Assembly: GCA_026419195.1 (NCBI GenBank)
Contig: JANZZV010000004.1
Span: 62,001-126,000, forward strand
Direction of reading: 5' to 3'
DNA from: Fervidobacterium sp.
Lineage (GTDB): Bacteria > Thermotogota > Thermotogae > Thermotogales > Fervidobacteriaceae
DNA: 64,000 nt
Shown piece by piece: positions 1,579 to 60,329 of the stretch (the first letter of the stretch is position 1; each line of letters begins with the position of its first letter). The translations under genes and the position numbers were made by a program. The notes beneath the pieces are model-generated. The model did no database searches. It had not been told where the DNA came from and saw only the letters and a program-made list of their open reading frames with translations.

Positions 1579-2859
1579 ATGAAGAAATGGTTTTTTCTAC
1601 TGGCTCTGCTTTTAGTGGGAAGTATTCTGATAGGCGCGCCATACAATGCTACTATCAAAGTCCTTGCTTGGGATGATGCATTGACTCAAGCTTTGAAAGA
1701 GGGGCTGCCTGAATTTGAAAAAGCCACCGGAATAAAGGTTATATTGGAGCTTGTTCCATCTGGTACTTTGCTACAAAAAATAGGTGTAAGTGTATCTCCA
1801 AACAAAACCGATTATGATCTTGTCACAATCGATGAGCCTTTTATTCCTGCACTCGCACATCTTATGACTCCATTCAACGAATGGGGTAGTGGTAAAGTGT
1901 TTAAAAGGCCGAATTTGAATATCTTTGCTCCAAATGCCTTTGAAGCTGCACAATGGATGGGAGTTTTTGTTGGAATGCCTGTTAACGCAAATGTTTATAT
2001 ATGGATTACAAGAAAAGATTTGATAAATGATCCAAAAAACAGAAACGATTTCAAAGCAAAGTATGGTTACGAATTAGGTATACCAAAAACATTCAAAGAG
2101 TTAAGAGATATGGCAGAATTTTTTGCATCAAGAGGTGTCTACGGCTTTGCGCCTTTCACAAAGCAAACGGAAGGTTCAACAGCAGAAGCGATTTTTATGT
2201 TTGAATCTTTTGGTACAAAACCTCTTGACATAGTTAACAACAGAGTAATTGTTGCGCTCGATGATAAAAAGGCGATTGAAGCTATTAATTTTTATAAGGA
2301 ATTACTCAAGTTCGCACCTCCGGGTGCACTTGACATGGGACATTCAGAAAGAATTGCGGCGTTTAACCAAGGAAAAGTCTTTACAATGTTCCAATGGCCC
2401 GCACTCGTTCCACAACATGAAGACCCAAATTCTTCGCTGGTTGCCGGCAAAATTGCATATTCGGCCCCACCAGCTGGACCAGCAAAGGCTGCTGCAATAA
2501 GAGGGTGTTGGGTTTTAGCTATGCCGAATGCTTCTACGAACAAAGCAGCTGCCGTTGAATTTGCATATTGGTGGGCATCACTTGAAACAGGGCAAAAACT
2601 TATACCCAAAGGATTCATGCCAGCGAGAAGTGATTTGTTGTTGAATCCAAACCTTAACAAAGACAGACCATGGTTCAAAGCAATTTTCGATTCTATGAAA
2701 AGCGCAGTTGCAAGACCAAGGTTTGTCAAATATCCTGAAGCTTCTCAAATTATCAGGAATTATTGGCTTGCTGCTATATCTGACAAGATGAAACCAGAAG
2801 ATGCCGTAAAGAAAATGAAGGAGGAATTAAATGAACTTCTCAAAGCCAGCGGGTATTGA
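1579..2859 (+). CDS. Sugar ABC transporter, extracellular substrate-binding protein
   Basis: A 426-residue family 1 extracellular solute-binding protein. The first 20 or so residues (MKKWFFLLALLLVGSILIGA) form a signal peptide, so the mature protein works outside the inner membrane and hands sugars to the two permeases encoded next. The fold is indicated by the NATIKVLAWDDALTQALKEGLPEFEKATGIKV-type beginning, reported here only in part: a beta strand followed by the F-x-K-x-T-G-I-K-V motif. GGAGGGAGT lies just upstream of the ATG. It is the first gene of the long operon and lies directly behind the LacI-type operator. In known sulfoquinovose importers the equivalent protein binds sulfoquinovosyl glycerol; here the ligand is inferred only from context. 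Confidence 0.9.
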   Translation: MKKWFFLLALLLVGSILIGAPYNATIKVLAWDDALTQALKEGLPEFEKATGIKVILELVPSGTLLQKIGVSVSPNKTDYDLVTIDEPFIPALAHLMTPFNEWGSGKVFKRPNLNIFAPNAFEAAQWMGVFVGMPVNANVYIWITRKDLINDPKNRNDFKAKYGYELGIPKTFKELRDMAEFFASRGVYGFAPFTKQTEGSTAEAIFMFESFGTKPLDIVNNRVIVALDDKKAIEAINFYKELLKFAPPGALDMGHSERIAAFNQGKVFTMFQWPALVPQHEDPNSSLVAGKIAYSAPPAGPAKAAAIRGCWVLAMPNASTNKAAAVEFAYWWASLETGQKLIPKGFMPARSDLLLNPNLNKDRPWFKAIFDSMKSAVARPRFVKYPEASQIIRNYWLAAISDKMKPEDAVKKMKEELNELLKASGY

Positions 2860-3745
2860 TCGAAAAATAAGAACAAGGGGCGTCAGCCCCTTTTGGCTTT
2901 TTGTGTTTCCTGCTTTAATTGTTGTTTTGGCAGTACTTGTTTATCCTATGATGTATGCTGTTTACATGTCTGGTTACGAGTGGAATTTGTTCGATAAAGT
3001 AAACCGAAAGATAGTTTTTTTCAACAACTATTTAAAGCTTTTTAGCGATTACGAATTTCTTCATTCTCTCTGGCTTCAATTAGGATTTATTGTCATAGCA
3101 TTACCAATAGAGACCGTTATAGGTTTTTTCGTAGCATTATTGCTTAACAGAGAAGGAAAGTTTTATTCCATTGCTCGTTCTTTATTACTTCTACCAGTTT
3201 TTATCTTACCAGTTATCTCAGGACTAACGTGGCGTATGATGCTACAACCAGAATATGGAATGGTAAGTTTCATTTTAGAAAAGCTCGGCTTTGGTGTTAA
3301 AGCGTGGCTTGCAGAACCTAGATTTGCCTATGGAATGGTAATCATCCAGGATGTGTGGCGAATGTGGCCTTTTATGTTCATGTTCATATACGCTGGACTT
3401 TCTGGATTACCAAAAGAATACTTAGAAGCCGCTGAAATAGATGGAGCTGGCTTTTGGACAAAGGTATTCAAGATAATAATACCTTATTTGAGATCAACAA
3501 TTGCCACCGGTTTCTTATTAAGACTTATAGATGCTCTTAGGATATTTTCAGAAGTCTACGTAATGACAGGTGGTGGTCCTGGAAACGCGACTCTTTTGCT
3601 TTCACTATACATAAACAAACAAGCTTTTGAATTTTTCAATATTGGATACGCTGCTACAATGGGGGTATTTTTGTTAATAATTGCACTTGGTATAGCTTTC
3701 TTTGTGGTGCAAGGAAATATACAATTTGAGGGTGAAAGAGGATGA
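2831..3745 (+). CDS. Sugar ABC transporter permease (MalF-like)
   Basis: A 304-residue inner-membrane permease of the carbohydrate CUT1 type with about six transmembrane segments. The coupling motif for the ATPase, an EAA loop, is seen at EYLEAAEIDGAGFWTKVFKI around residue 200. The start at 2831 overlaps the end of the binding-protein gene by 29 bases and is supported by AAGGAGG six bases upstream. No ATPase gene is present in the operon, so the importer probably borrows a shared MsmX/UgpC-type ATPase encoded elsewhere, which is common for this transporter class. Confidence 0.92.
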   Translation: MNFSKPAGIDRKIRTRGVSPFWLFVFPALIVVLAVLVYPMMYAVYMSGYEWNLFDKVNRKIVFFNNYLKLFSDYEFLHSLWLQLGFIVIALPIETVIGFFVALLLNREGKFYSIARSLLLLPVFILPVISGLTWRMMLQPEYGMVSFILEKLGFGVKAWLAEPRFAYGMVIIQDVWRMWPFMFMFIYAGLSGLPKEYLEAAEIDGAGFWTKVFKIIIPYLRSTIATGFLLRLIDALRIFSEVYVMTGGGPGNATLLLSLYINKQAFEFFNIGYAATMGVFLLIIALGIAFFVVQGNIQFEGERG

Positions 3746-4563
3746 AAAAAAGGAAATTAATCTCCGTACTTGTAGTGATAACAACTTTGTTGATACTTGC
3801 CGCAGAGCTAATGCCTATAATCGTGGTTGTTACAAGTAGTTTTAAGAGAGATATCGATATATGGGCGCGTAGTCCTTTCTATTTCAAACCAACGATTGTT
3901 AGTTATAAGACAGTGCTTTCAAATAAAGATTTTATCATAAGTTTGAAAAATAGCTTACTTGTTGCAAGTCTTTCGACTTTTTTTTCAATTATCATTGGTT
4001 CAATGGCTTCTTACGGTATAACAAGATACTCTTCAAAATTTAAAGAGTTTATAGCTTATAGTTTTCTTGTTTTTAGAATGATTCCGCAAATTTCTCTTGT
4101 TATACCGTTATTTGTTATGTTCACAACCTTAGGCTTGAAAGACACAATAACTGGTGTGACGATTGCTCATATCAGCTTCAACTTGCCTTACGTAATATGG
4201 CTTTTGTTACCTTTCTTTGCAGCAATACCAAAAGATTACGAGGAGGCAGCAAGAATAGACGGTGCTACAGAGTCTGGTGTGTTTTGGAAAATTTTTCTCC
4301 CATTAGTGGCACCTGGGCTTGTAGTTGCTTCTATATTTGCATTCTTGATGTCGTGGAATGAATTTTTGTACGCCCTAATATTGTCATCTGTAAAGGCTCG
4401 AACAGCTCCGGTCGCAGTTAATGGCTTGCTTGGGCAGTATGCTCCAAAATGGGGACAATTGTCAGCAGCTGGTACTATAATGTTAATACCTGTCTTTATA
4501 ATCACTTTAACATTACAAAGGTACATAATCAAAGGGTTAGCTGCAGGGGGGATTAAGGGATGA
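3742..4563 (+). CDS. Sugar ABC transporter permease (MalG-like)
   Basis: A 273-residue partner permease of the MalG type. It has an N-terminal transmembrane segment, then PFYFKPT and Y-x-x-x-L, as in MalG proteins, and an EAA loop at DYEEAARIDGATESGVFWKI about residue 165. It overlaps the previous gene by an ATGA junction, showing translational coupling. Together with the preceding two genes it forms a carbohydrate importer whose ATPase is not encoded nearby. Confidence 0.92.
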   Translation: MKKRKLISVLVVITTLLILAAELMPIIVVVTSSFKRDIDIWARSPFYFKPTIVSYKTVLSNKDFIISLKNSLLVASLSTFFSIIIGSMASYGITRYSSKFKEFIAYSFLVFRMIPQISLVIPLFVMFTTLGLKDTITGVTIAHISFNLPYVIWLLLPFFAAIPKDYEEAARIDGATESGVFWKIFLPLVAPGLVVASIFAFLMSWNEFLYALILSSVKARTAPVAVNGLLGQYAPKWGQLSAAGTIMLIPVFIITLTLQRYIIKGLAAGGIKG

Positions 4564-5981
4564 AAGATTTTGAAAAGACATCAGAAAAGATACCGTTTAT
4601 TACGAAATTTTTCTTTGGTTTTGGTGATGTGTATGGTGGAGGAGTATTTAATATCATAAACTTCTTTTACGCAATCTTTTTGACAGATGTTGTTAAAATA
4701 CCACCTCAGTACGCTTCTATAATTTTTCTTGTTGGGAAAATATGGGATGCTGTAACAGACCCAATAATGGGCTATATTAGCGATAGAACAAAGACACGTT
4801 TCGGAAGAAGACGTCCGTATTTTTTGGCAGGTGTACCTTTTATATTTCTTTCGTTTGTGATGGTATGGTATCCTGTGAGCTTTGAAAGCATTTTCGCAAG
4901 GTTTTTATATGCATTTTTCGCTTACATCTTCTTAAATACCGTCGTTACGATGGTATTAATACCTTACACGGCTATGAGTGCCGAGATAACGTTGGATTAC
5001 AATGAAAGAACAGCCATAAATTCTATAAGATTAGTTTTCTCATTAATTTCTTCTTTACTTTGCGCAGTACTACCAATGATGATAGTGAAAGCGGTAGGAG
5101 ATGTTAAGAAAGGTTACTTGTTGATGTCTGTCATATTTGGTTTATTTTTTGCCTTACCATATCTTGGAGTTTTTGCATTTACAAAGGAACAAAACTTTAA
5201 GCCAGCCACCACAAAGTTGAGCTTTAAAGAGTTGATCTTGGAGCCTTTAAAAATACGTACCTTTAGACTATATCTTGCAATGTTTCTCTTTGCTTATCTT
5301 TCTATTGACACTGTCTCTGTAATATTTCCTTATTATATGAAATATTACATAGGTAAACCGTTTTTTGTATCAGCAGTACTCGGGGTTCTGCTGGTTACCG
5401 AAATAATATTTGTACCTGTTTATGCATACATTGCACAAAAGATAAGTAAGAATTTTGCATATATAGTAGGTGCCTTTATCTGGGCAATTGGTGGTATTCT
5501 AACACTTGTTATGAGACCAGAATGGTCTAACAACATATTGCTCATTTTTGCTGCTATTATAGGTGCTGGGGTTTCAGCAGTTGCCGTTATGCCCCACACA
5601 ATCCTTGGTGATGTAACTGATGTTGGTGAATTGAAATTTAACGAGCGAAGAGAAGGCACAATAAGTTCTATGGCTACTTTTCTTAGAAAGGTAGCCTCAG
5701 CTGTTGTCCAAGCATTGATACTGTTGATCTTAGGTGTGGTGGGGTACATAAATCCAAAAGGTAACGAGATCCCTGTACAACCAAACTCTGTTATTAATAC
5801 GATAAGATCAATCCTTGCTTTTGGTCCTATTGTTTTGTTAACATTTGGAGTTATTGCTGCCATACGCTACCCTTTGAAGCCAAAAATACATGAGGAACTT
5901 AAAAAACTGTTGAAACAAAAAAGAGAAATTGGGAAGACAGATGAAGAAAGATTAGAACAGCTAAGAAAGGAATTGATATAG
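4560..5981 (+). CDS. GPH-family sugar:cation symporter (MFS, YihO/YihP-like)
   Basis: A 473-residue, 12-helix transporter of the glycoside-pentoside-hexuronide:cation symporter family. The signature DPIMGYISDRTKTRFGRRRP is present around residue 73 and FGDVYGGGVFN near the N-terminus. It overlaps the MalG-like gene by ATGA. This family includes the E. coli sulfoquinovose-cluster transporters YihO and YihP, which fits the proposed role of importing sulfoquinovose or its glyceryl glycoside. Melibiose- or xyloside-type sugars are also possible substrates. Its presence beside an ABC importer means the cluster encodes two sugar uptake systems, or one importer and one exporter. Confidence 0.88.
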   Translation: MKDFEKTSEKIPFITKFFFGFGDVYGGGVFNIINFFYAIFLTDVVKIPPQYASIIFLVGKIWDAVTDPIMGYISDRTKTRFGRRRPYFLAGVPFIFLSFVMVWYPVSFESIFARFLYAFFAYIFLNTVVTMVLIPYTAMSAEITLDYNERTAINSIRLVFSLISSLLCAVLPMMIVKAVGDVKKGYLLMSVIFGLFFALPYLGVFAFTKEQNFKPATTKLSFKELILEPLKIRTFRLYLAMFLFAYLSIDTVSVIFPYYMKYYIGKPFFVSAVLGVLLVTEIIFVPVYAYIAQKISKNFAYIVGAFIWAIGGILTLVMRPEWSNNILLIFAAIIGAGVSAVAVMPHTILGDVTDVGELKFNERREGTISSMATFLRKVASAVVQALILLILGVVGYINPKGNEIPVQPNSVINTIRSILAFGPIVLLTFGVIAAIRYPLKPKIHEELKKLLKQKREIGKTDEERLEQLRKELI

Positions 5982-5984
5982 CTG

Positions 5985-6869
5985 ATGCATTTTAGCCTAT
6001 TAATTCTTGTAATCATTTGGGGAAGCTACTACATATCAAACAAAATCGCACTAAAAACATTCTCTGTTACTTTTGCTGGAATCTTTATACGCCTTGCTGT
6101 ATTTGTAATAATGTTAATTTATATGTATCTTAGAAAGGAATTAAAAAGTCTTTTTAAGCTTGAGTATGTTTTTCCAAGACTTGTCATAATTGGATTACTT
6201 GGTTTTTTACTTGACTACACAGCTTTTATGGGATTCAAATATTCTACAGCCTCTAAGGGTGCCATCTTACTCAGATCTGACGTGTTGTTTTCAACTCTCG
6301 TAAGCATTGCGTTTGGTCAAAAAGTTACTTTACTTGAATTGATAATAGTTATATTGATGCTTTTTGGTGTCTTTCTTGTTTCAGAGCAGTCTATTAATCA
6401 ATTGAGTTTTGTGTATAGTGATATTTTCTTTTTGCTTAGTGCGTTGTTTATATCACTTAATGCGTTTGTCATACGCAGTGTACAAACTGATAAGAAAAAT
6501 CCTACTTCAGATAATGTGATAGCATTTTACAACAACTTCTTTACATTTTTATTCTTTATACTATTCTTAGGTAAGAACTTTCAACTATCTGAATTCTTGG
6601 AAATTAAGCTTGACCCTTCGTTCCTTGGATTGTTATTTGCAAGTATATTCCAGTTTTTAATTTATGTTTTCTACTATCATTGCCTGAGAAGATATCCTGT
6701 TTGGCTTGTTAGAAGTATTTTATTGCTTATGCCTGTTTATGTTTCACTGTTTTCATTTCTCTTTTTGAAAGAGAAATTAACCTTTCTTCAAATTATTGGT
6801 ATGGTGATCATCCTTAGTTGTGCGTTTGTGCTTACAAACATTTTATATAAAGATGAGGTGAAAAAATGA
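5985..6869 (+). CDS. EamA/DMT family transporter
   Basis: A 294-residue membrane protein with about ten transmembrane helices in two EamA repeats, typical of drug/metabolite exporters. It follows the symporter gene by three bases and overlaps the alcohol dehydrogenase gene by ATGA, so it belongs to the operon. In sulfoglycolytic clusters an exporter must remove the terminal sulfonate; this gene is the best candidate in this operon for exporting isethionate. That assignment rests on context only. Confidence 0.8.
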   Translation: MHFSLLILVIIWGSYYISNKIALKTFSVTFAGIFIRLAVFVIMLIYMYLRKELKSLFKLEYVFPRLVIIGLLGFLLDYTAFMGFKYSTASKGAILLRSDVLFSTLVSIAFGQKVTLLELIIVILMLFGVFLVSEQSINQLSFVYSDIFFLLSALFISLNAFVIRSVQTDKKNPTSDNVIAFYNNFFTFLFFILFLGKNFQLSEFLEIKLDPSFLGLLFASIFQFLIYVFYYHCLRRYPVWLVRSILLLMPVYVSLFSFLFLKEKLTFLQIIGMVIILSCAFVLTNILYKDEVKK

Positions 6870-7966
6870 CAGAATATCCAGCTTTTCAAATTTTTAATCC
6901 TGTGAAAGTTATTTATGGAGTTGGAAAGATAAACGTTTTGGAAAGTATGGCTTACAAGAAACCACTTTTCATCTGTGACCCAGTTGTAGAAAAGCTGGGT
7001 GTTATTGAAAAGATCGAGAAAGCGTTCAGCAAATTTTTTGTGTTTAACGAGGTTGAACCTAATCCGTCATGCGAGCTTATTAACAAAATAGTCGGACTTT
7101 ACAAACACGAAAGCATCGACTGTGTGATTGGTATAGGTGGTGGTAGCTCACTAGACACAGCAAAAGCTGTGAGCTCACTTTTGAAAAGTGGTGGTGACAT
7201 AACAGACTATCTCTTGGGTTCGGATAAGTTTTCTTCACGTACAAATTTAGTGCTCATTCCGACAACAGCAGGTACTGGAAGCGAAGTTACTAACGTTGGA
7301 GTGTACACATACCAAGGTCTAAAAAAGCCCATGACAAGTGATACGTTTTGGGCGGATGTCTCAATTGTTGATCCCGAGTTAACGTATTCAATGCCGGTAA
7401 GGGTTACTGTCTCTACAGGTCTTGATGCCCTTACTCACGCGCTTGAAAGTTATTGGGCAAAAAGTTCCCAACCCTACACAGAAGGACTGGCTCTTGCATC
7501 ACTTAAGATGATCTTGGAAAATCTAAAAAACTCAATAAACAGTGACAAGACGGCCAGAAATAATATGGCTTTAGCTGCAACAATCGCAGGTATTGCCTTT
7601 AGTCAGACACGTACAACTGCCGCACACGCTATCAGTTTTCCTCTTACTAGCTTTTACGGGATAGAACATGGCGTTGCCGTTGCTCTCACGTTACCAAAGC
7701 TGATTCATTGGACTTATCCGTATATCAAGAGTAAAATGGATGCTTTGCTAAGATATTTACAATTGAATAGTATTGAAACTTTTTCTGAAACAATCGAAAA
7801 ACTGATGATAGTTGCAGGAATTTCAACAAGACTTAGAGACTATGGAGTCAGACAAGAAGATATCGAAAAAATAGCAAAGGTTTCTATGGAAGCAAATATT
7901 ATCAAATTGACCCCGGGTGATATTACCTACGAGGACGTAGTTATGATTTTGGAAGAAATATACTGA
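6866..7966 (+). CDS. Iron-dependent alcohol dehydrogenase; candidate sulfoacetaldehyde reductase
   Basis: A 366-residue type III (iron-containing) alcohol dehydrogenase. The NAD-binding motif GIGGGSSLDTAKA lies at residues 89-101 and TTAGTGSE at 133-140. The four metal ligands of the family are all present: Asp187, His191, His254 and His268. GAGGTG precedes the ATG. In the sulfo-transketolase pathway as described for a Clostridium strain, an NADH-dependent reductase (SqwF, as I recall) turns sulfoacetaldehyde into isethionate and reoxidises NADH; this gene is the obvious counterpart. A reductase for another short aldehyde released by transketolase would also fit the gene order. Confidence 0.87.
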   Translation: MTEYPAFQIFNPVKVIYGVGKINVLESMAYKKPLFICDPVVEKLGVIEKIEKAFSKFFVFNEVEPNPSCELINKIVGLYKHESIDCVIGIGGGSSLDTAKAVSSLLKSGGDITDYLLGSDKFSSRTNLVLIPTTAGTGSEVTNVGVYTYQGLKKPMTSDTFWADVSIVDPELTYSMPVRVTVSTGLDALTHALESYWAKSSQPYTEGLALASLKMILENLKNSINSDKTARNNMALAATIAGIAFSQTRTTAAHAISFPLTSFYGIEHGVAVALTLPKLIHWTYPYIKSKMDALLRYLQLNSIETFSETIEKLMIVAGISTRLRDYGVRQEDIEKIAKVSMEANIIKLTPGDITYEDVVMILEEIY

Positions 7967-8046
7967 CTAGTTGTTAAGTTGTGAACAAAATTTGGAAACT
8001 GAAATTGAAATCTGACAAACTTGGGAGTTGGAAAGGAGGATTCATC

Positions 8047-8889
8047 TTGAATCTTACACATGAAGAGATTAAATTTTTGAAAAAGAAAGCTACTCTTATT
8101 AGAATGATAACCATTGAAATGATCGGAAAACTCGGAGTTGGTCATATTGGCGGCTCACTGTCTATAGCAGAAGTACTTGCAGTCTTATATTATAAAGTCA
8201 TGAGAATCGATCCGAAAAATCCAAAGTGGGAGGATAGAGACAGGTTTGTTTTGTCAAAAGGACATGCTGGTCCTGCTTTATACAGTGTGCTTGCCGACCT
8301 TGGTTATTTTCCGTACGGATGGATAGACACTCTCAACAAGCCAAACACTAACTTACCGAGCCACTGCGATCGTTTAAAGACTCCGGGTATCGATATGACT
8401 GCCGGTTCACTTGGTCAAGGGCTTTCTGCCGCTGTCGGAATGGCACTTGGAGGAAAGATAATGAAAAAAGATTTTTATGTCTATGCAGTTATTGGTGACG
8501 GAGAGTCTCAGGAAGGTCAGATATGGGAGGCTGCAATGTTCGCAGCTCATAGTAAATTAAATAATTTAATAGCTTTTACAGATTACAATAAGATGCAAAT
8601 AGATGGTTATATACACGAAATAAATAACTTAGAACCGTTGGTTGATAAATGGCGTGCATTTAATTGGAATGTCATGGAAATAGATGGACACAATGTTGAG
8701 GAAATCTACAACGCAATAATGAACGGTAAAGAGCAAAAAGATAAACCAACGATGATAATACTTCACACGATAAAGGGACGAGGGGCATATTTTGCCGAAG
8801 GAAAGATCACATGTCATAATATGCCGATAAAAGAAGAGGAATGGAAAACAGCTGTTGAAATGTTAAGAAAGGAACGTGATGAAATATGA
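8047..8889 (+). CDS. Transketolase, N-terminal (TPP pyrophosphate-binding) subunit
   Basis: A 280-residue N-terminal subunit of a split transketolase. Motifs seen are GHIGGSLS near residue 33, SKGHAGPALYS, the GSLGQGLS loop, and the TPP/metal motif GDGESQEGQIWEA followed by N in DYNKMQIDG. The start is set at the TTG at 8047 because AAAGGAGG lies seven bases upstream; reading back to the GTG at 7981 would add 22 residues that overlie this ribosome binding site. It overlaps the C-terminal subunit gene by ATGA. The general pentose phosphate transketolase is probably encoded elsewhere, so this pair is likely dedicated to the cluster's substrate (SqwG-like in the proposed pathway). Confidence 0.92.
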   Translation: MNLTHEEIKFLKKKATLIRMITIEMIGKLGVGHIGGSLSIAEVLAVLYYKVMRIDPKNPKWEDRDRFVLSKGHAGPALYSVLADLGYFPYGWIDTLNKPNTNLPSHCDRLKTPGIDMTAGSLGQGLSAAVGMALGGKIMKKDFYVYAVIGDGESQEGQIWEAAMFAAHSKLNNLIAFTDYNKMQIDGYIHEINNLEPLVDKWRAFNWNVMEIDGHNVEEIYNAIMNGKEQKDKPTMIILHTIKGRGAYFAEGKITCHNMPIKEEEWKTAVEMLRKERDEI

Positions 8890-9839
8890 TCAATCTTACA
8901 CCATCAGTTTATGAAAAAGAACTCAGAGAAGTTTACGGAGAACTACTTTTCAAATATGCAACAGAGGATTCGCGTATAGTTGTTTTGAACGCAGACCTTG
9001 CAAGATCGGATGGTACACTGAAGTTTAAAGAGTCATTCCCTGACAGATTTATTGATGTAGGTGTTGCAGAGGCAAACATGATCGGCATTGCTGCGGGTCT
9101 TGCCAACGTTGGTTTGATTCCGATAACACATACATTTACCCCATTTTCAACACGTAGAGCATTTGATCAAATCACCATATCTGTTGCTTACGCTGATTTA
9201 CCGGTAAAGATGATGGGAACCGATCCTGGTGTTACAGCTGAGTTGAACGGTGGTACACACATGAGTTTTGAGGATGCTGGAATAATGAGAAGTTTACCAA
9301 ATATGACAATTGTTGAGCCTGCTGATGCTGTACAATTCAAAGCTATGTTTGAACAAATAATTTACTATCCAAAACCCATATATGTACGTATGTATAGAAG
9401 AAGGAAAGAAAAATTTTTTGAAGAAGGGATGGAGTTTAAAATTGGAAAGATTACAACACTGAAAGATGGTAAGGATATAACGATAATCTGCTCTGGTCTT
9501 ATGGTTGGTCAAGCGATGATCGCAACACAAATGCTTGAAAAAGAGGGTATAAGTGTAAAACTTTTAAACATGCACACATTAAAACCTGTAGATGAAGAAG
9601 CGATCATCGATGCGGCTAAACAAACTGGTCGTATAATTGTTGTTGAAAATCATAGTATTATTAATGGATGGGGAAGTGCTGTTGCGGAAGTTTTAGCTGA
9701 AAATTATCCGGTTGTTATGAAACGGATAGGTGTGAGAGACCATTTTGGGGAAGTTGGATTCACCGACTTTTTGTTAAGAAAATACAAAATGACGGCTGAG
9801 GATATTTACAAAACTGCCTTGGATCTTCTGAAAGGGTGA
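8886..9839 (+). CDS. Transketolase, C-terminal (pyrimidine-binding) subunit
   Basis: A 317-residue C-terminal subunit. The catalytic Glu that activates TPP is Glu62 in DVGVAEANM, and TFTPFSTRRAFDQ follows. The acceptor-binding stretch differs from ordinary transketolases: where those read roughly TH-x-G-I then GEDGxTHQ, this protein has GTDPGVTAELNGGTHMS. The usual His is therefore Asp113, and the Asp equivalent to E. coli TktA Asp469 is Asn121, while His125 is kept. These changes suggest an unusual sugar substrate and are consistent with a SqwH-like subunit. It is translationally coupled to both neighbours. Family assignment is firm; substrate is inference. Confidence 0.9.
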   Translation: MINLTPSVYEKELREVYGELLFKYATEDSRIVVLNADLARSDGTLKFKESFPDRFIDVGVAEANMIGIAAGLANVGLIPITHTFTPFSTRRAFDQITISVAYADLPVKMMGTDPGVTAELNGGTHMSFEDAGIMRSLPNMTIVEPADAVQFKAMFEQIIYYPKPIYVRMYRRRKEKFFEEGMEFKIGKITTLKDGKDITIICSGLMVGQAMIATQMLEKEGISVKLLNMHTLKPVDEEAIIDAAKQTGRIIVVENHSIINGWGSAVAEVLAENYPVVMKRIGVRDHFGEVGFTDFLLRKYKMTAEDIYKTALDLLKG

Positions 9840-11860
9840 GCGTCATGTATTTATCCAAAGATGGTTTTAAAATATCGATTAAAACACTTCAATTACATCA
9901 TAGCAATGCATTTCCAATGTTTTACGTAGGTGTTGGGAAAAACAAATACGAGATGTCCCACGGAAATTTCAACATAGAAAAATTCTACGAATCAAAAATA
10001 CCGTTGAGAAAATTCAATATACTCGAAAATAACGGGAATAGTTTAAAAATAAGATTTTACAGTGATGAATTATATTTGGAGTGCTTATTTGAGATTTTTG
10101 ATAGTAAAGTCAAGATAACTATCCTTGGTTTTTCTGATGGGTTAAATAGGCTTTGGATAAATATCCCTGCAGATCCAAAAGAAGAGGTATTTGGTTGTGG
10201 AGAACAATATTCTTTTTTAAATTTGCGTGGTAAAAGAGTCCCACTATGGGTTTCAGAACAAGGAGTTGGCAGAAATAAGAGAGATTTAATCACTCATTTT
10301 GCAAATTATAAAGATGATGCTGGAGGAGACTGGTACACAACGTATTTTCCACAGCAGACTTTCGTGTCCTCAAAAAATTATTACTGTGTAATTTACGACT
10401 ATTCTTACATGGAATTCGACTTCACGCATGAAATGTTCCACCAACTTGAAGTTCATAACATACCGAATGCAATATCATTTGGAATTGGTGACAACTTATT
10501 AACTGCTGTTGAAATGTTGACAAGAGAAATAGGTACACCACCTGCTTTGCCTGACTGGATATACGACGGGGTTATTGTTGGGTTGCAAGGTGGTACACAG
10601 ATAGTTATTCCAAAGGTGAGAAAAGCTCTTGATAAGGGATTAAAAATAACGGGGATGTGGATACAAGATTGGGAAGGTAAGAGAATTACGACGTTTGGTA
10701 AGCAACTCATGTGGAACTGGGTTTATGATAAGAATATGTATCCGGATTTACCACGGATTATAGATGAACTGAGAAATGAGGGTATAAGAACACTCGGATA
10801 TATAAACCCATTTTTAGCCCTCGAAGGCTCACTTTACAAAGAAGCTTCAGATAAAGGACTACTTGTTAAAAAGATTGATGGTTCGGAATACCATATTGTT
10901 GTCACTACATTTCCTGCTGCCCTCTTAGATCTTACGAATCCTGAGACACAAAGCTGGATTAAAGATGTGATAAAAAATAACATGATAGGAATAGGGCTTT
11001 CAGGTTGGATGGCGGATTTTGGAGAATACCTTCCAACAGATGCTGTACTATACGACGGCACGCCAGCTGAGCTTTATCATAACAGGTACCCAGTTGAGTG
11101 GGCAAGAGTAAATAGGGAAGCTGTCGAAGAATCTGGTAAGTTGGGTGAAATAGTTTTCTTTATGAGGGCTGGTAATCTTGGAAGTAGCAAGTATTCCACA
11201 CTTTTCTGGCACGGTGATCAAATGGTGAATTGGTCAAGGGATGATGGTTTGCCGTCTGTTGTTGTCGCTGCTCAGTCTATGAGTATGTCAGGATTGAGTT
11301 TGACGCATTCTGATATCGGTGGCTACACAACCCTTGCAAAGCATGTACCTGAAATAGTATGGACCAAAAGAACAAAAGAACTTTTCATGAGGTGGGCAGA
11401 ACAAGCAACTTTCACTCCTGTAATGAGAACTCACGAAGGAAACTGGCCTGATGAAAATTGGCAATTTGATTCTGATGACGAAACTTTGTTACATTTTTCA
11501 AGAATGTCTAAGATTCATGCTGCACTAAAACCTTACATTAAGGCTCTTGTGGACAACTATGTTAATCAATACAAACCTATATTCATTCCGCTAAATGTGT
11601 TGTATCCAACAAATGAAAGCGAAAGATTTAAGTATCAGTATTTATTTGGTGAAGACTTATTGATCGCTCCTGTCTTGCAACCAGATACGAAAGAATGGGA
11701 AGTGTATCTACCACCAGACAGATGGGTACACCTTTGGAGTGGCAAAGAATACAACGGTGGTACTTACAATATAAGTGCACCTTATGGTTATCCACCTGTA
11801 TTTTATAAAGCAAGTTCAAAATTTAAGTATGTGTTCGAAAAAGCGGGTGATGTGAGTTGA
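9836..11860 (+). CDS. GH31 glycosidase of the YihQ (sulfoquinovosidase) type, with altered sulfonate-site Arg
   Basis: A 674-residue GH31 alpha-glycosidase (three fewer if the ATG at 9845 is used). It follows E. coli YihQ, as I recall that sequence, without gaps and at a constant offset of 11 over about 250 residues. The nucleophile is Asp394 in WMADFGEYLP (YihQ Asp405), the acid/base is Asp461 in GDQ (Asp472), and Tyr497 in HSDIGGY matches Tyr508. Gln251, Gln277 and Trp293 match Gln262, Gln288 and Trp304 of the sulfoquinovose pocket. The exception is Gln290, which replaces YihQ Arg301, a direct sulfonate ligand. No signal peptide is seen, so it acts in the cytosol on imported glycosides. It is either a sulfoquinovosidase with a modified pocket or an enzyme for a related 6-modified glucoside. 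Confidence 0.88.
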   Translation: MSVMYLSKDGFKISIKTLQLHHSNAFPMFYVGVGKNKYEMSHGNFNIEKFYESKIPLRKFNILENNGNSLKIRFYSDELYLECLFEIFDSKVKITILGFSDGLNRLWINIPADPKEEVFGCGEQYSFLNLRGKRVPLWVSEQGVGRNKRDLITHFANYKDDAGGDWYTTYFPQQTFVSSKNYYCVIYDYSYMEFDFTHEMFHQLEVHNIPNAISFGIGDNLLTAVEMLTREIGTPPALPDWIYDGVIVGLQGGTQIVIPKVRKALDKGLKITGMWIQDWEGKRITTFGKQLMWNWVYDKNMYPDLPRIIDELRNEGIRTLGYINPFLALEGSLYKEASDKGLLVKKIDGSEYHIVVTTFPAALLDLTNPETQSWIKDVIKNNMIGIGLSGWMADFGEYLPTDAVLYDGTPAELYHNRYPVEWARVNREAVEESGKLGEIVFFMRAGNLGSSKYSTLFWHGDQMVNWSRDDGLPSVVVAAQSMSMSGLSLTHSDIGGYTTLAKHVPEIVWTKRTKELFMRWAEQATFTPVMRTHEGNWPDENWQFDSDDETLLHFSRMSKIHAALKPYIKALVDNYVNQYKPIFIPLNVLYPTNESERFKYQYLFGEDLLIAPVLQPDTKEWEVYLPPDRWVHLWSGKEYNGGTYNISAPYGYPPVFYKASSKFKYVFEKAGDVS

Positions 11861-13290
11861 AAAAAGTTAAGATCGGACTTGTGGGTTTGATACAACACAA
11901 CTTCAGAGGAGATAAAGAAAGTGTATATAAAAGATCAATTCAGGAGTTGCAAGAACTTGCACAAGAGATGGATTTTGAGTTTGTTTTTAGAAAAGATTTT
12001 GTCGTTACACAGCAAGATGCACAGGTTGCTAAAAGGCAAATGGAAGATGAAAGTGTTGATTTCTTGTTCATTCAGTCAACTTCGTTTTCTTCTGGTTACT
12101 TGATTCAGCAGCTTGCGCAAACAAACACTTTTCTTGGGCTGTGGGCAATCCCTGAATCATCAAAATATGGTCCTTTGCCGTTGAATTCGTTTTGTAATAT
12201 GAATTTGAACATGAGCCAACTCAACAGATTTTTGCCGTATTTAAACAAAGACGCCAAGTGGTTCTATGGATATCCCAAAGATGAAATATTCAAGAAAAGA
12301 TTCACGACGACTTTAAGAGCGCTTAGAGCAATCAAAAATATATTTGGTTCAAAATTTCTACTCATAGGCGGTCGGGCACCCGGGTTTGATAATTTATTTT
12401 ACGATCCACGAATGTTAAAAGCTAAACTTCGTGTTTCGGTAGACGAAATGGAATTTTGTGAATTGAAAACAAGGTTTTTGAGCTATTCGAGTGAACAATT
12501 AAGAGATTTAATTGCTCAGATAGAATCTAATTACACTATAAGAGACGAATACGCCAAAAATTCCTTAGAAAAAATGGCAAGGTTGATTCTAACAGTTAGA
12601 CAATTGAAGGAAGAAGGTAATTACAATGGCTTTGCGATCTCCTGCTGGCCAAAATTTAGACTTGAGCTGGGAATGGTACCTTGTGCATCGTATGCTTTTT
12701 TATCTGACGAAACGAGTACAACTGTTTGTGAAGGTGATGTGATAAGTCTTCTAAGTATGAAGATTTTAGAATACATTGCCGATTATCCGGCAATATTGAT
12801 GGATCTATCTGATGTAGACTTCAGCGATAATTCAATATTTTTGTGGCACTGTGGAATAGGTAGCAAGTTTTATGCTAAAGGTAAAATTGAACTTGAAAAG
12901 CACTTTAATCCAGGTCCAAAAGATCCTGAAAAAGGTTGGCTTACAATGGCCCCCGTTGCATCTATGAAATTCTTGGAAATACCAGTAACTATATCAAGGA
13001 TTACCAACAACTTGAACGAATACTTTGTTCTTACTGGAGAATTTTTCGATAGTCAGGACAAACCGGACTACGACGGCAGTAGAGGCTGGCTTGGAAAATT
13101 AAAATTCTTTGATGAAGATATAACAACCCTTGATCTGATTAATACTATTATGGTAAACAAAATAGAACACCATTTTCCACTTGTAAAAGGCAATTACACG
13201 AGCGAAGTTATCGAATTTATGAATTGGCTTGGCTTTGAAAAAATTCCAAAAATTCAGTATAAAGATTATTACCAAAGGAGGCATAGCTAA
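11857..13290 (+). CDS. L-fucose/L-arabinose isomerase-like protein; candidate sulfoquinovose isomerase
   Basis: A 477-residue cytosolic protein with the overall build of the fucose/arabinose isomerase fold. It has an N-terminal Rossmann-like part (KIGLVGLIQHN), a central domain with GGRAPGFD, and a C-terminal part with CWPKFRLELG, CEGDV, WHCG and GEFFD. The Cys-Glu-Gly-Asp and Trp-His-Cys-Gly positions correspond to where metal ligands lie in fucose isomerases. It overlaps the glycosidase gene by TTGA. In the proposed pathway it would turn sulfoquinovose into 6-deoxy-6-sulfofructose; that role is inferred from order and chemistry, since every sulfofructose-dependent route needs an aldose-ketose isomerase. 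Confidence 0.72.
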   Translation: MKKVKIGLVGLIQHNFRGDKESVYKRSIQELQELAQEMDFEFVFRKDFVVTQQDAQVAKRQMEDESVDFLFIQSTSFSSGYLIQQLAQTNTFLGLWAIPESSKYGPLPLNSFCNMNLNMSQLNRFLPYLNKDAKWFYGYPKDEIFKKRFTTTLRALRAIKNIFGSKFLLIGGRAPGFDNLFYDPRMLKAKLRVSVDEMEFCELKTRFLSYSSEQLRDLIAQIESNYTIRDEYAKNSLEKMARLILTVRQLKEEGNYNGFAISCWPKFRLELGMVPCASYAFLSDETSTTVCEGDVISLLSMKILEYIADYPAILMDLSDVDFSDNSIFLWHCGIGSKFYAKGKIELEKHFNPGPKDPEKGWLTMAPVASMKFLEIPVTISRITNNLNEYFVLTGEFFDSQDKPDYDGSRGWLGKLKFFDEDITTLDLINTIMVNKIEHHFPLVKGNYTSEVIEFMNWLGFEKIPKIQYKDYYQRRHS

Positions 13291-13293
13291 ATC

Positions 13294-13773
13294 ATGACCA
13301 AGAAGGTTGTTATAGGCTCCGATAAATCAGGCTTCTTTCTAAAAGAGGAGATAAAAAAATTCCTTGAAGATAAGGGTTATTATGTTGAGGACGTCGGCAC
13401 CAAAGACTTAGACAATTGGTTACCATTTTACGACGTTGCTCCAATATTGGCAAAGAAGATACAATCTGGTGAATTTGAGAAAGGCATTCTCATATGTGGA
13501 ACTGGTGCTGGGATGGCTATAGTAGCTAATAAATTTAAAGGAATATATGCAGTAGCAGTGGAAGGTAGTTACACAGCCAGAATGGCACAAGTAATAAATA
13601 ATGCTAACGTACTTACTATGGGCGGATGGGTAGTTGCACCTCAACAAGCCTGTGACATGGTTGAAAGATGGCTGAACGCTCAATTTACAGAAGGTTTGGA
13701 AGAATGGAGGCAAGTATTACTCAAAGGAGCACAAAACGAAATTAGAAGGATAGAGGAGGAAAATTTCAAATAA
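13294..13773 (+). CDS. RpiB/LacAB family isomerase with lost phosphate-binding residues; candidate sulfoerythrose isomerase
   Basis: A 159-residue RpiB-family isomerase. The catalytic Cys69 in ICGTGAGM and Asp10 are kept. Compared with the canonical copy at 59892, several substrate-phosphate and ring-opening residues differ. His9 is replaced by Lys11, the ARRHNNAN segment becomes MAQVINNAN so that His98 aligns with Ile101, the Arg of GIRA is Tyr, and the first C-terminal Arg aligns with Leu135. Loss of these residues fits a substrate without a phosphate. In the sulfo-transketolase pathway an RpiB-like enzyme (SqwI) isomerises 4-deoxy-4-sulfoerythrose, which would explain this divergence. The gene shares a TAATG junction with the regulator gene. 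Confidence 0.85.
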   Translation: MTKKVVIGSDKSGFFLKEEIKKFLEDKGYYVEDVGTKDLDNWLPFYDVAPILAKKIQSGEFEKGILICGTGAGMAIVANKFKGIYAVAVEGSYTARMAQVINNANVLTMGGWVVAPQQACDMVERWLNAQFTEGLEEWRQVLLKGAQNEIRRIEEENFK

Positions 13774-14789
13774 TGCACGAATTAAAAAAATTCATAACCA
13801 TAAAAGATATAGCACGCGCTGCTGGTGTTTCTATTAACACAGTATCGAGAGCACTTGGAAACAGAGGGTACGTAAAAAAAGATACAAAGGAAAAGATACT
13901 AAAAATAGCCCAAGAGCTTGGTTATACTCCTAACTGTGCTGCAACAGCCTTAAGGACAAGAAAATCTGGCATCATTGGTGTTATAGTGGTCGATAATTCG
14001 AATCCGTTTTATGCAGAGTTAGTTAAGGGTATAGAGAGTGAAGCAAGGATAAATGGTTACAATATAATATTAATAAATACAGATAGGAATTATGAGAACG
14101 AGGTAAAGGCTATCCAAACACTTTTAAAACGTAGAGTGGATGGCTTGATAATATGTGCTGTTCAGTCACAAGTAGAAGATATAAAGGAACTCGTTGATAA
14201 GAAAATACCAAATGTCATTGTGGGAAGTAAACTAAATGGAATTAAGACAAATTACGTTTGCAGCGACGATGAAATGGGTGGATACATTGCCGCAAAGCAT
14301 CTTATTGAAACTGGACATAGGAAGTTACTCTTCCTGAACGCCTTTGATTATAAATATGCAGCAAGGATGAGGGAAAAAGGCGCAAGAAAAGCAATAGCAG
14401 AGTCAGCAAAAGTTGTTGAATTAAGTGTAATCAATTCGCTTGAAGGATTTGAGAATGCTTACAAAAAGTTTAAAGAAGTAATCTCAAAAAGTATTTCATT
14501 CGATGGTGTATTGTGTTATAACGACATATATGCTTTTGCTGTAATAAAGGTTGCAAAAGAAAGTGGATTTAAAATACCTGAAGACTTTTCATTAATAGGC
14601 TTTGATGACATAGAATTTTCCTCAGTTTTAAATCCATCATTAACAACTATCAGAGTAGACAAGGTAATGCTTGGTTCGCAAGCATTCAAAGCGCTTATTA
14701 AAAGTATAAAAGAAGATGTTATCACCGAATTAACTTTACCTGTTCAGCTTGTTGAGCGCGAAACTGTTAAGAGAATTAAATTATTTTAA
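13773..14789 (+). CDS. LacI-family transcriptional regulator
   Basis: A 338-residue LacI/GalR repressor. The helix-turn-helix is at residues 7-27 (ITIKDIARAAGVSINTVSRAL), followed by the hinge region NCAATALRTRKS and a periplasmic-binding-protein-like sensor domain with DNSNPFYAELVKGIE and the C-terminal IGFDDIEFSSVLNPSLTTIR. It is the last gene of the operon, starting on the A of the preceding stop codon, and is followed by a strong terminator. It most likely binds the palindrome at 1526-1539 and releases it in the presence of a sugar of the cluster. Confidence 0.93.
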   Translation: MHELKKFITIKDIARAAGVSINTVSRALGNRGYVKKDTKEKILKIAQELGYTPNCAATALRTRKSGIIGVIVVDNSNPFYAELVKGIESEARINGYNIILINTDRNYENEVKAIQTLLKRRVDGLIICAVQSQVEDIKELVDKKIPNVIVGSKLNGIKTNYVCSDDEMGGYIAAKHLIETGHRKLLFLNAFDYKYAARMREKGARKAIAESAKVVELSVINSLEGFENAYKKFKEVISKSISFDGVLCYNDIYAFAVIKVAKESGFKIPEDFSLIGFDDIEFSSVLNPSLTTIRVDKVMLGSQAFKALIKSIKEDVITELTLPVQLVERETVKRIKLF

Positions 14790-16033: not shown

Positions 16034-16084
16034 ATCTTTTTGATTAATTATTTGAAAGGAGGGAAAGGGCTTATCCCAATTTTT

Positions 16085-17473
16085 ATGGATATCGATTCAA
16101 AAATCAACGAGTTCGTCGATATGTGTTTTGATAGCATTTTAAAAGCGCTTGATAGAGTTATAAAAATTAGGTCTGTTATGGAGGAACCAAAAGAAGGTAT
16201 GCCGTTTGGTGAAGGACCTGCAAAAGCTCTTGAGGAAACTCTTAAAATAGCTAAAGAGCTTGGATTTGATCCAGTTAATGTAGATAACTACGCAGGTCAT
16301 GTTGAATATGGAAATGGTGGAAAGTTGTATGCCGTTCTCGGACATTTAGATGTTGTACCGGAAGGAGATATCGAAAGATGGGAGAGTAATCCATACGAGC
16401 TTTCAATTAGAGACGGAAAGATGTATGCGAGGGGAGTATCGGATGACAAAGGTCCAAGTATAGGTGCACTTTTTGCATTGAAAATCGCTTCTGAATTGGT
16501 AAAAGAACCAAAAAACAGGGTTAGAATTATATTCGGTACAAACGAAGAGAACGGTTCACAATGTTTAAAGTATTATTTTACAAAACAACCGTACCCGGAT
16601 GCTGCAGTAACACCTGATGGTGATTTTCCTCTCGTCTTTGCAGAAAAGGGAATAGTGACATATCGTATTTCTAAAGAGCTAAAAAGAGAGTATACAACTA
16701 CACTCCTAAACCTAAATGCAGGGACAGCCGCAAATGTTGTTCCGGAAGAGTGTACGGCAGAAATACTAACAAACAAAGTGAATGAAATTGCTTATCTGAT
16801 AGAAAATTATAGTGGTATGTGTAAGTACAAATATACTGTAGACAAAAATAGAATTGTTGTAAAGTCCTTAGGTAAATCGGCACACGGTGCACATCCAGAG
16901 GCAGGTATTAATGCTGCTGCTGGAATGTTGGAGTTGCTTTCAAGAATTGACTTTGGACCGGATAACATCACGATAAGAACACTTTACGAACGTCTTGGGA
17001 AAGAATACTATGGCATAGGGCTTGGAATATCAGGTCAAGACGATGTAAGCAAAAAATTAACATGCAATCTTGGTATATTAAGAATTGAGAATGGTAAGAT
17101 AAGTGCCATAATCAACATAAGACATCCCATATTCTATAACGTTGATGTGTTAACCTTGCAAATAAAACAAGCCATGAACAGTTTTGAAGTTGAACAGCAA
17201 AGTTATTCAAAACCCCTATATGTTTCAAAAGACAGCGACTTTGTAAAATTATTACTTGAAATCTACAGAAGTGAGACAAACGATGAATCAGAACCCATTT
17301 CAATTGGTGGAGGAACTTATGCAAGGAGTGTTCCCTATGGTGTTGCCTATGGTGCAGTCTTTCCAGGAGAAGAAACACATATGCATCAACCAAACGAAAG
17401 TTGGTCGCTTGAGTCGTACAGAAAATTCATAAAAATCTATACAAAATTAATATATCATTGGTTAACCAATTAA
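16085..17473 (+). CDS. pepV: PepV-like dipeptidase (peptidase M20)
   Basis: A 462-residue zinc peptidase of the M20 family, PepV/dipeptidase subfamily, which cleaves dipeptides in the cytosol. Metal and catalytic motifs seen are GHLDVVP (His87 and its Asp), GVSDDKGP, GTNEENGSQ, the TPDGDFP segment and a late His in ETHMHQPNE. A lid-domain stretch SLGKSAHGAHPEAGINAA is also present. The strong site AAAGGAGGG (16055-16063) lies too far (21 bases) from the ATG at 16085, and upstream TTG codons at 16040 and 16052 lie before it. A non-standard ATC or ATT start between them cannot be excluded, so the N-terminus is uncertain by up to about six residues. Confidence 0.88.
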   Translation: MDIDSKINEFVDMCFDSILKALDRVIKIRSVMEEPKEGMPFGEGPAKALEETLKIAKELGFDPVNVDNYAGHVEYGNGGKLYAVLGHLDVVPEGDIERWESNPYELSIRDGKMYARGVSDDKGPSIGALFALKIASELVKEPKNRVRIIFGTNEENGSQCLKYYFTKQPYPDAAVTPDGDFPLVFAEKGIVTYRISKELKREYTTTLLNLNAGTAANVVPEECTAEILTNKVNEIAYLIENYSGMCKYKYTVDKNRIVVKSLGKSAHGAHPEAGINAAAGMLELLSRIDFGPDNITIRTLYERLGKEYYGIGLGISGQDDVSKKLTCNLGILRIENGKISAIINIRHPIFYNVDVLTLQIKQAMNSFEVEQQSYSKPLYVSKDSDFVKLLLEIYRSETNDESEPISIGGGTYARSVPYGVAYGAVFPGEETHMHQPNESWSLESYRKFIKIYTKLIYHWLTN

Positions 17474-59891: not shown

Positions 59892-60329
59892 ATGAAAATA
59901 GCTATTGGAAGTGACCACGCAGCGTTCGAACTAAAAGAAAAGGTTAAAGAATACCTTATCAATAAAGGTTTTGAGATTGTGGATTGTGGTACATATTCCA
60001 TAGAAAGTGTAGACTATCCTGACTACGCTAAGAAAGTTTCGGAAAAAGTGGTTAACAAAGAATGTGTTTTCGGTATATTAATGTGTGGAACAGGTATAGG
60101 CATGTCAATAGCCGCAAATAAGATCAAAGGAATAAGGGCTGCATTATGTCTTTTTCCAGACATGGCGGCATATGCTAGAAGACACAACAACGCAAATGTA
60201 CTTGTACTTCCAGGCAGGCTCATGGGTATAGAGCTGGCAAAATGGACAGTTGATGCCTTTTTGAATTCTTCTTTTGAAGGTGGAAGGCACGAAAGAAGGG
60301 TAAAGAAGATTGAAGAACTTGAGGGATGA
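59892..60329 (+). CDS. rpiB: Ribose-5-phosphate isomerase B
   Basis: A 145-residue RpiB with all usual residues: Asp8-His9 in GSDHA, Tyr in DYPDYA, catalytic Cys65 in MCGTGIGM, ARRHNNANVL with His98, and the C-terminal Arg residues of GGRHERR. It converts ribose-5-phosphate to ribulose-5-phosphate. It serves as the canonical reference against which the altered copy at 13294 stands out. Confidence 0.95.
   Translation: MKIAIGSDHAAFELKEKVKEYLINKGFEIVDCGTYSIESVDYPDYAKKVSEKVVNKECVFGILMCGTGIGMSIAANKIKGIRAALCLFPDMAAYARRHNNANVLVLPGRLMGIELAKWTVDAFLNSSFEGGRHERRVKKIEELEG

Follow-up and report, generated by a model that had tools for sequence, protein, structure and literature searches.

An RpiB-fold gene within a sulfo-TK operon

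The window analyzed here, a stretch of 64,000 nucleotides from Fervidobacterium sp., carries a canonical rpiB gene and a second gene of the RpiB/LacAB fold that lies within an operon (Table 1), which raises the question of which sugar the operon copy isomerizes. The initial annotation, whose two reading frames we recovered exactly where it had placed them, viewed the operon copy as an RpiB paralogue that had lost its phosphate contacts, as would be predicted for a non-phosphorylated substrate such as 4-deoxy-4-sulfoerythrose (SE). The two proteins are 40% identical in pairwise alignment. With the rpiB equivalog model TIGR01120 (cut-off 138.65), the canonical copy scores 197 bits and passes, but the operon copy, at 125.2 bits, does not; its PF02502 RpiB/LacAB domain scores 145.5 bits against a threshold of 24.7. 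The operon copy also stays below the cut-off of the EryI/DerI model NF051858 (94.8 vs 240) and below the lacA and lacB cut-off scores, and no partner subunit gene adjoins it.

Table 1. Features of the window discussed in the text. Residues are equated with E. coli RpiB unless indicated, and counts refer to the SqwI-type, RpiB and EryI sequences compared.
Feature	Position	Strand	Remarks
ABC sugar transporter at operon start (binding protein 1579-2859; permeases 2831-3745 and 3742-4563)	1579..4563	+	
GPH-family cation symporter	4560..5981	+	TIGR00792, slightly below cut-off
EamA/DMT permease	5985..6869	+	candidate C2-sulfonate exporter
Iron-containing alcohol dehydrogenase, putative SqwF-like sulfoacetaldehyde reductase	6866..7966	+	
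Transketolase N-terminal subunit (SqwG-like)	7981..8889	+	
Transketolase C-terminal subunit (SqwH-like)	8886..9839	+	
GH31 YihQ-type sulfoquinovosidase	9836..11860	+	871 bits vs cut-off 553; Gln at E. coli Arg301 position
Divergent FucI/SftI-like isomerase (SqvD role)	11857..13290	+	NF048012 126.6 bits, cut-off 700
sqwI-type gene, RpiB/LacAB fold (PF02502)	13294..13773	+	159 aa
Lys11 codon = His10 (phosphate contact)	13324..13326	+	SqwI K 88/91, RpiB H 26/26, EryI S 7/7
Cys68 codon = Cys66 (catalytic base)	13495..13497	+	kept in 91/91 SqwI
Ile101 codon = His99 (ring opening)	13594..13596	+	SqwI I/V 91/91, RpiB H 26/26, EryI S 7/7
Trp112 codon = Arg110 (M. tuberculosis Arg113)	13627..13629	+	SqwI W 90/91, RpiB R 24/26, EryI R 7/7
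Leu135 codon = Arg133 (phosphate contact)	13696..13698	+	SqwI L/F/V 91/91, RpiB R 26/26, EryI R 6/7
Arg139 codon = Arg137 (phosphate contact)	13708..13710	+	SqwI R/K 91/91, RpiB R 26/26, EryI N 7/7
LacI-family regulator, final gene of unbroken run	13773..14789	+	
Canonical rpiB, comparison sequence	59892..60329	+	145 aa

The operon comprises 12 plus-strand genes, from 1579 to 14789, that overlap or are separated by at most 14 bp, and it agrees with the gene set published for the sulfo-TK pathway (PMC9594981, PMC12890257) in having a sulfoquinovosidase, an SQ isomerase (divergent, with a score below its cut-off), the SF transketolase GH, SqwI and a SqwF-type reductase. The sulfo-transketolase (sulfo-TK) pathway degrades the plant sulfosugar sulfoquinovose (SQ) anaerobically. 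A search of the genome with PF16161 (SqvB) returned no match, and its positive control was likewise silent. The proposal of SqwI dates from the description of the sulfo-TK pathway itself (Liu et al. 2021, according to later papers that cite it), and Thermotogae are among the listed hosts of the pathway (2026 review; PMC12890257); a literature search on Fervidobacterium and sulfoquinovose found nothing. Operon context, conserved linkage and membership in a clade of its own strongly support a SqwI-type identity, and we consider it likely that 13294-13773 encodes SqwI, the sulfo-TK isomerase for SE. In this role, isomerization of SE to SEu would let transketolase take a second C2 unit, leaving sulfoacetaldehyde.

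The EamA/DMT permease gene of the operon shows linkage to SqwI in 50 of 80 relatives from named genomes and in most Thermotogota clusters, and its product may export isethionate or a different C2 sulfonate. An M20-family peptidase gene (16040-17473) follows the operon, and the same adjacency to the sqw genes recurs in four or more further members of the genus.

Atypical sulfoquinovosidase and SQ isomerase genes

The YihQ-type gene of the operon, the sole one in the genome, encodes Gln (codon 10703-10705) at the position of E. coli YihQ Arg301, which we take to be the sulfonate-binding arginine, while Trp304 is kept. This Gln is present in all six cluster-bearing genus members and in four other Thermotogota genomes, with Arg in three others, and a literature search on YihQ Arg301 found nothing relevant. 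Several clostridial or Acholeplasma-type sulfo-TK clusters (L066, L071, L072, L106) carry two YihQ homologues. The adjacent SqvD-like isomerase has no Pfam match. It is 64-73% identical within the genus and ~45% identical to proteins of four genomes from another family, and the genus proteins form a separate branch with 27-31% identity to SqvD from the sulfo-TK clusters of other Thermotogota.

Given that YihQ has no arginine of the Arg301 type and that the SqvD-like isomerase has diverged, the starting sugar is less certain in this genus than in Clostridium. Both features could be explained if the substrate of the operon were not sulfoquinovosyl glycerol but a related sulfosugar or glycoside, in which case the tetrose arriving at SqwI may differ from SE. 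However, the YihQ score exceeds the family cut-off by a wide margin, and SqwI and the transketolase subunits stay near those of canonical clusters, so we regard a different sulfosugar as unlikely.

The operon copy belongs to an old subfamily

Members of the operon-copy clade were found in 13 of 103 Thermotogota genomes at 58-100% identity, and in all 13 the gene is located inside a sulfo-TK cluster (some contigs end early). The next-best Thermotogota matches, at no more than 46% identity, behave as ordinary RpiBs, and three genus members without the operon copy have RpiB alone. We also compared 80 relatives from named genomes (47-61% identity), whose hosts include Clostridia, Halanaerobiales, Izimaplasma, Acholeplasma and Planctomycetota. 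The transketolase C-subunit gene adjoins in 77 of these 80 relatives and the N-subunit gene is near in 72.

In a tree of 77 proteins that included SqwI, LacA/LacB and RpiB, a comparison the initial annotation had proposed, the operon copy fell within a separate SqwI clade, the SqwI sequences lying to one side of a long-stemmed branch (stem 1.24, SH-aLRT 99). EryI, LacA and LacB each formed a group of their own apart from SqwI. A divergent, ungrouped Subdoligranulum sequence (L139) lies inside or beside the SqwI clade on a very long branch, and its placement is unsure. The distribution among the 103 genomes and the tree therefore identify the operon copy as a member of an old subfamily and not a recent stray duplicate. 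We reject a recent duplication of the canonical RpiB on the basis of the tree and of how the clade is distributed, and the term paralogue, insofar as it implies a local duplicate, does not apply.

Three annotated RpiBs (L136, L142 and L133; plasmid-borne; Alicyclobacillus, Paracoccus, Sphingobium) carry substitutions at ligand positions, such as H10E/H99S, or R110Q/W together with R133P/E, and their substrates probably differ from that of RpiB.

Catalytic residues are kept while ligand residues are replaced

Residues were counted in 91 SqwI-type, 26 RpiB and 7 EryI sequences and gave the same result under four alignment methods; the RpiB count excludes the outlying L136 and L142, since their substrates may differ. 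In E. coli numbering, C66, D9 and N100 are kept in SqwI, RpiB and EryI alike, and T68 is invariant in SqwI and EryI and present in 24 of the 26 RpiBs (Ser in two). The operon copy has Cys68, Thr70, Asp10 and Asn102 at these positions, including the Cys and Asp that the initial annotation had listed as retained. In contrast, R137 is the only member of the RpiB residue set H10, H99, R110, R133, H134 and R137 that the operon copy keeps. At H134, which is His in 26/26 RpiBs and Ser in 7/7 EryI sequences, SqwI mostly has Glu or Pro, while D42 is Pro in 86/91 SqwI, Asp in 24/26 RpiB and Phe in 7/7 EryI sequences.

Thirty-seven positions reach 90% conservation or more among the RpiBs, and eight of them are replaced in essentially all SqwI sequences. 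Five of these eight fall within the set of six ligand and ring residues (Fisher p=0.0007); D42, P44 and G131 make up the remainder and lie within the DYP and GGRH motifs. Taken together, the catalytic residues are kept and the ligand residues are replaced clade-wide, beyond chance. Since the clade arose once, this pattern reflects a maintained specialization with one history and not repeated evolution.

The initial annotation had correctly read Lys11 for His9, Tyr85 for the GIRA Arg, Ile101 for His98 and Leu135 for the GGRH Arg of the canonical copy. Its list of phosphate-contact losses was nonetheless incomplete, as it missed both the change from Arg110 to Trp112 and the retention of Arg137 (Arg139 in the operon copy), and it over-read the change in GIRA as diagnostic, since Tyr is also found there in 7 of the 26 genuine RpiBs. 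The Arg of the PGR motif (E. coli Arg110, M. tuberculosis Arg113) is also implicated in phosphate binding.

An AlphaFold model of the operon copy, built as a monomer without ligand from 39 aligned SqwI sequences, had a mean pLDDT of 97.3 and a pTM of 0.92; the RpiB active site sits between two subunits. Its best PDB matches were RpiBs (3he8 with TM 0.87, 2vvr and 1o1x; TM 0.79-0.87 for the closest RpiBs), followed by LacA/LacB and the non-phosphate RpiB-fold isomerase 4u8f, and a search of the PDB for a SqwI structure found none. For the canonical RpiB, modelling from its sequence alone gave a pLDDT of 66.6, too low for the model to be used.

Ribose-5-phosphate (R5P) as an unlikely alternative substrate

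In Leishmania RpiB, modelling places His11, Arg137 and Arg141 (E. coli 10, 133 and 137) at the phosphate and Arg113 as a further surface contact, and the H102N variant is inactive, with His102 cited as protonating the ring oxygen (PMC4783025). The operon copy might still be an extra R5P isomerase that feeds pentose phosphates onward, an activity that would help because transketolase makes xylulose-5-phosphate; the sulfo-TK pathway loads the pentose phosphate pool (PMC9594981), and the RpiB fold and the catalytic Cys, Thr and Asp are all kept. However, all 91 relatives carry replacements at the residues that R5P isomerization requires for opening the ring and holding the phosphate, and a canonical RpiB is already present in the genome. 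Moreover, since mutation of E. coli H99 or Leishmania His102 decreases the activity of genuine RpiBs 26-fold or abolishes it (PMC4783025), strong R5P activity of the operon copy is unlikely. We judge this role to be very unlikely.

Ring opening and anion recognition

SE and erythrose-4-phosphate are tetroses without a free C4 hydroxyl, for which a furanose is impossible. Because SE cannot close this ring, His99 and His134 would be dispensable to its isomerase, and the substitutions of His99 by Ile or Val and of His134 by Glu or Pro may mean that ring opening is no longer needed. The anion pocket, which in RpiB presents three Arg and one His to a phosphate dianion, would be reduced to Lys11 and Arg139, while Trp112 and Leu135 are predicted to fill the space left by a shorter substrate with a singly charged sulfonate. 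With these two basic residues remaining, the anion site looks rebuilt, which goes beyond mere loss, and the altered site is better suited to a short, sulfonated open-chain sugar than to R5P.

The proposal that lost phosphate contacts point to a non-phosphorylated substrate holds only in part. Most of the losses (H10, H99, H134 and R137) are also found in EryI, which interconverts D-erythrulose-4-phosphate and D-erythrose-4-phosphate (PMC5992420), a reaction analogous to that of SqwI but with phosphate in place of sulfonate. Because EryI lacks these residues yet acts on a phosphorylated tetrose, contact loss alone does not predict a non-phosphorylated substrate. Judged by the alignment, Arg110 and Arg133 are what distinguish the sulfonate enzyme from the enzyme for the tetrose phosphate. 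Our reading is that an acyclic tetrose goes along with loss of the ring-opening His, while a sulfonate goes along with loss of Arg110 and Arg133. By extension, it is a tentative possibility that the RpiB family writes ring-forming ability (His99 and His134) and anion type (Arg110 and Arg133 for phosphate; Lys11, Trp112 and Arg139 for sulfonate) in separate residues. We did not find a SqwI-EryI residue comparison in the literature searched, which did not extend to the original 2021 sulfo-TK paper.

The residues shared with EryI could also mean that the operon copy isomerizes another short sugar, such as erythrose-4-phosphate/erythrulose-4-phosphate, as an EryI equivalent, given that the loss of His10, His99 and His134 is common to both. 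We consider this slightly less probable still than R5P isomerization. EryI has Arg110 in 7/7 and Arg133 in 6/7 sequences where SqwI has Trp and Leu/Phe, mean SqwI-EryI identity is just 30%, the NF051858 score is 95 against 240, the two do not group together in the tree, and the operon has no tetritol genes. Least credible is a role as helper or non-catalytic partner of another RpiB, in the manner of LacA and LacB, each of which lacks part of the site, since the operon has no second RpiB-like gene and the catalytic residues are invariant in 91/91 sequences, whereas LacA has lost Cys and Thr.

SqwI as the SE isomerase remains our preferred reading. SqwI activity is reported not to be directly measurable because SE isomerizes spontaneously (PMC9594981), and a literature search found measured activity for no SqwI; given the spontaneous reaction, SqwI might be unnecessary or do something else. 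In SQ-degrading rumen bacteria, sqwG, sqwH and sqwI are among the top 15% of expressed genes (PMC13219744).

If the proposed division of residues is true, SqwI and EryI would form a natural matched pair for discrimination between sulfonate and phosphate. The comparison also names a few residues whose exchange against those of EryI would show the change from a sugar-phosphate to a sulfosugar enzyme. The fixed residue signature also sets SqwI apart from many proteins annotated as RpiB, which would help to correct genome annotation. A thermophilic SqwI may suit crystallography, although heat also speeds the spontaneous reaction.

Comparison with known systems

One of the systems compared is 4u8f, a 4-deoxy-L-threo-5-hexosulose-uronate ketol-isomerase, which is likewise an RpiB-fold enzyme for a non-phosphorylated acid sugar but is a larger protein from another pathway with 18-20% identity to the operon copy. 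LacA/LacB galactose-6-phosphate isomerase belongs to the same fold family, and each of its subunits lacks some RpiB ligand residues; unlike SqwI, it is a hetero-oligomer acting on a hexose phosphate, and the catalytic Cys is lost in LacA. RpiB (E. coli, T. maritima 1o1x and C. thermocellum 3he8) shares with the operon copy the fold and Cys66, Thr68, Asp9, Asn100 and Arg137, while the operon copy differs by H10K, D42P, H99I, R110W, R133L and H134E and by its separate clade. EryI/DerI (NF051858) resembles SqwI in having a non-cyclising tetrose substrate and in the loss of His10, His99 and His134. In contrast with SqwI, however, it keeps Arg110 and usually Arg133, loses Arg137, uses a phosphate substrate and is not its sister in the tree.

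The operon copy shares both the PF02502 fold and the operon partners with SqwI of known sulfo-TK clusters (MSTE9, Faecalicatena and Acholeplasma, with the pathway reported in Thermotogae), and SqwI relatives in like clusters are 47-80% identical to it. Among the SqwI relatives aligned, we found no feature that separates it from known SqwI. Membership in SqwI would thus place the operon copy in an enzyme group that is already known, to which the residue comparison with EryI makes a modest, testable addition.
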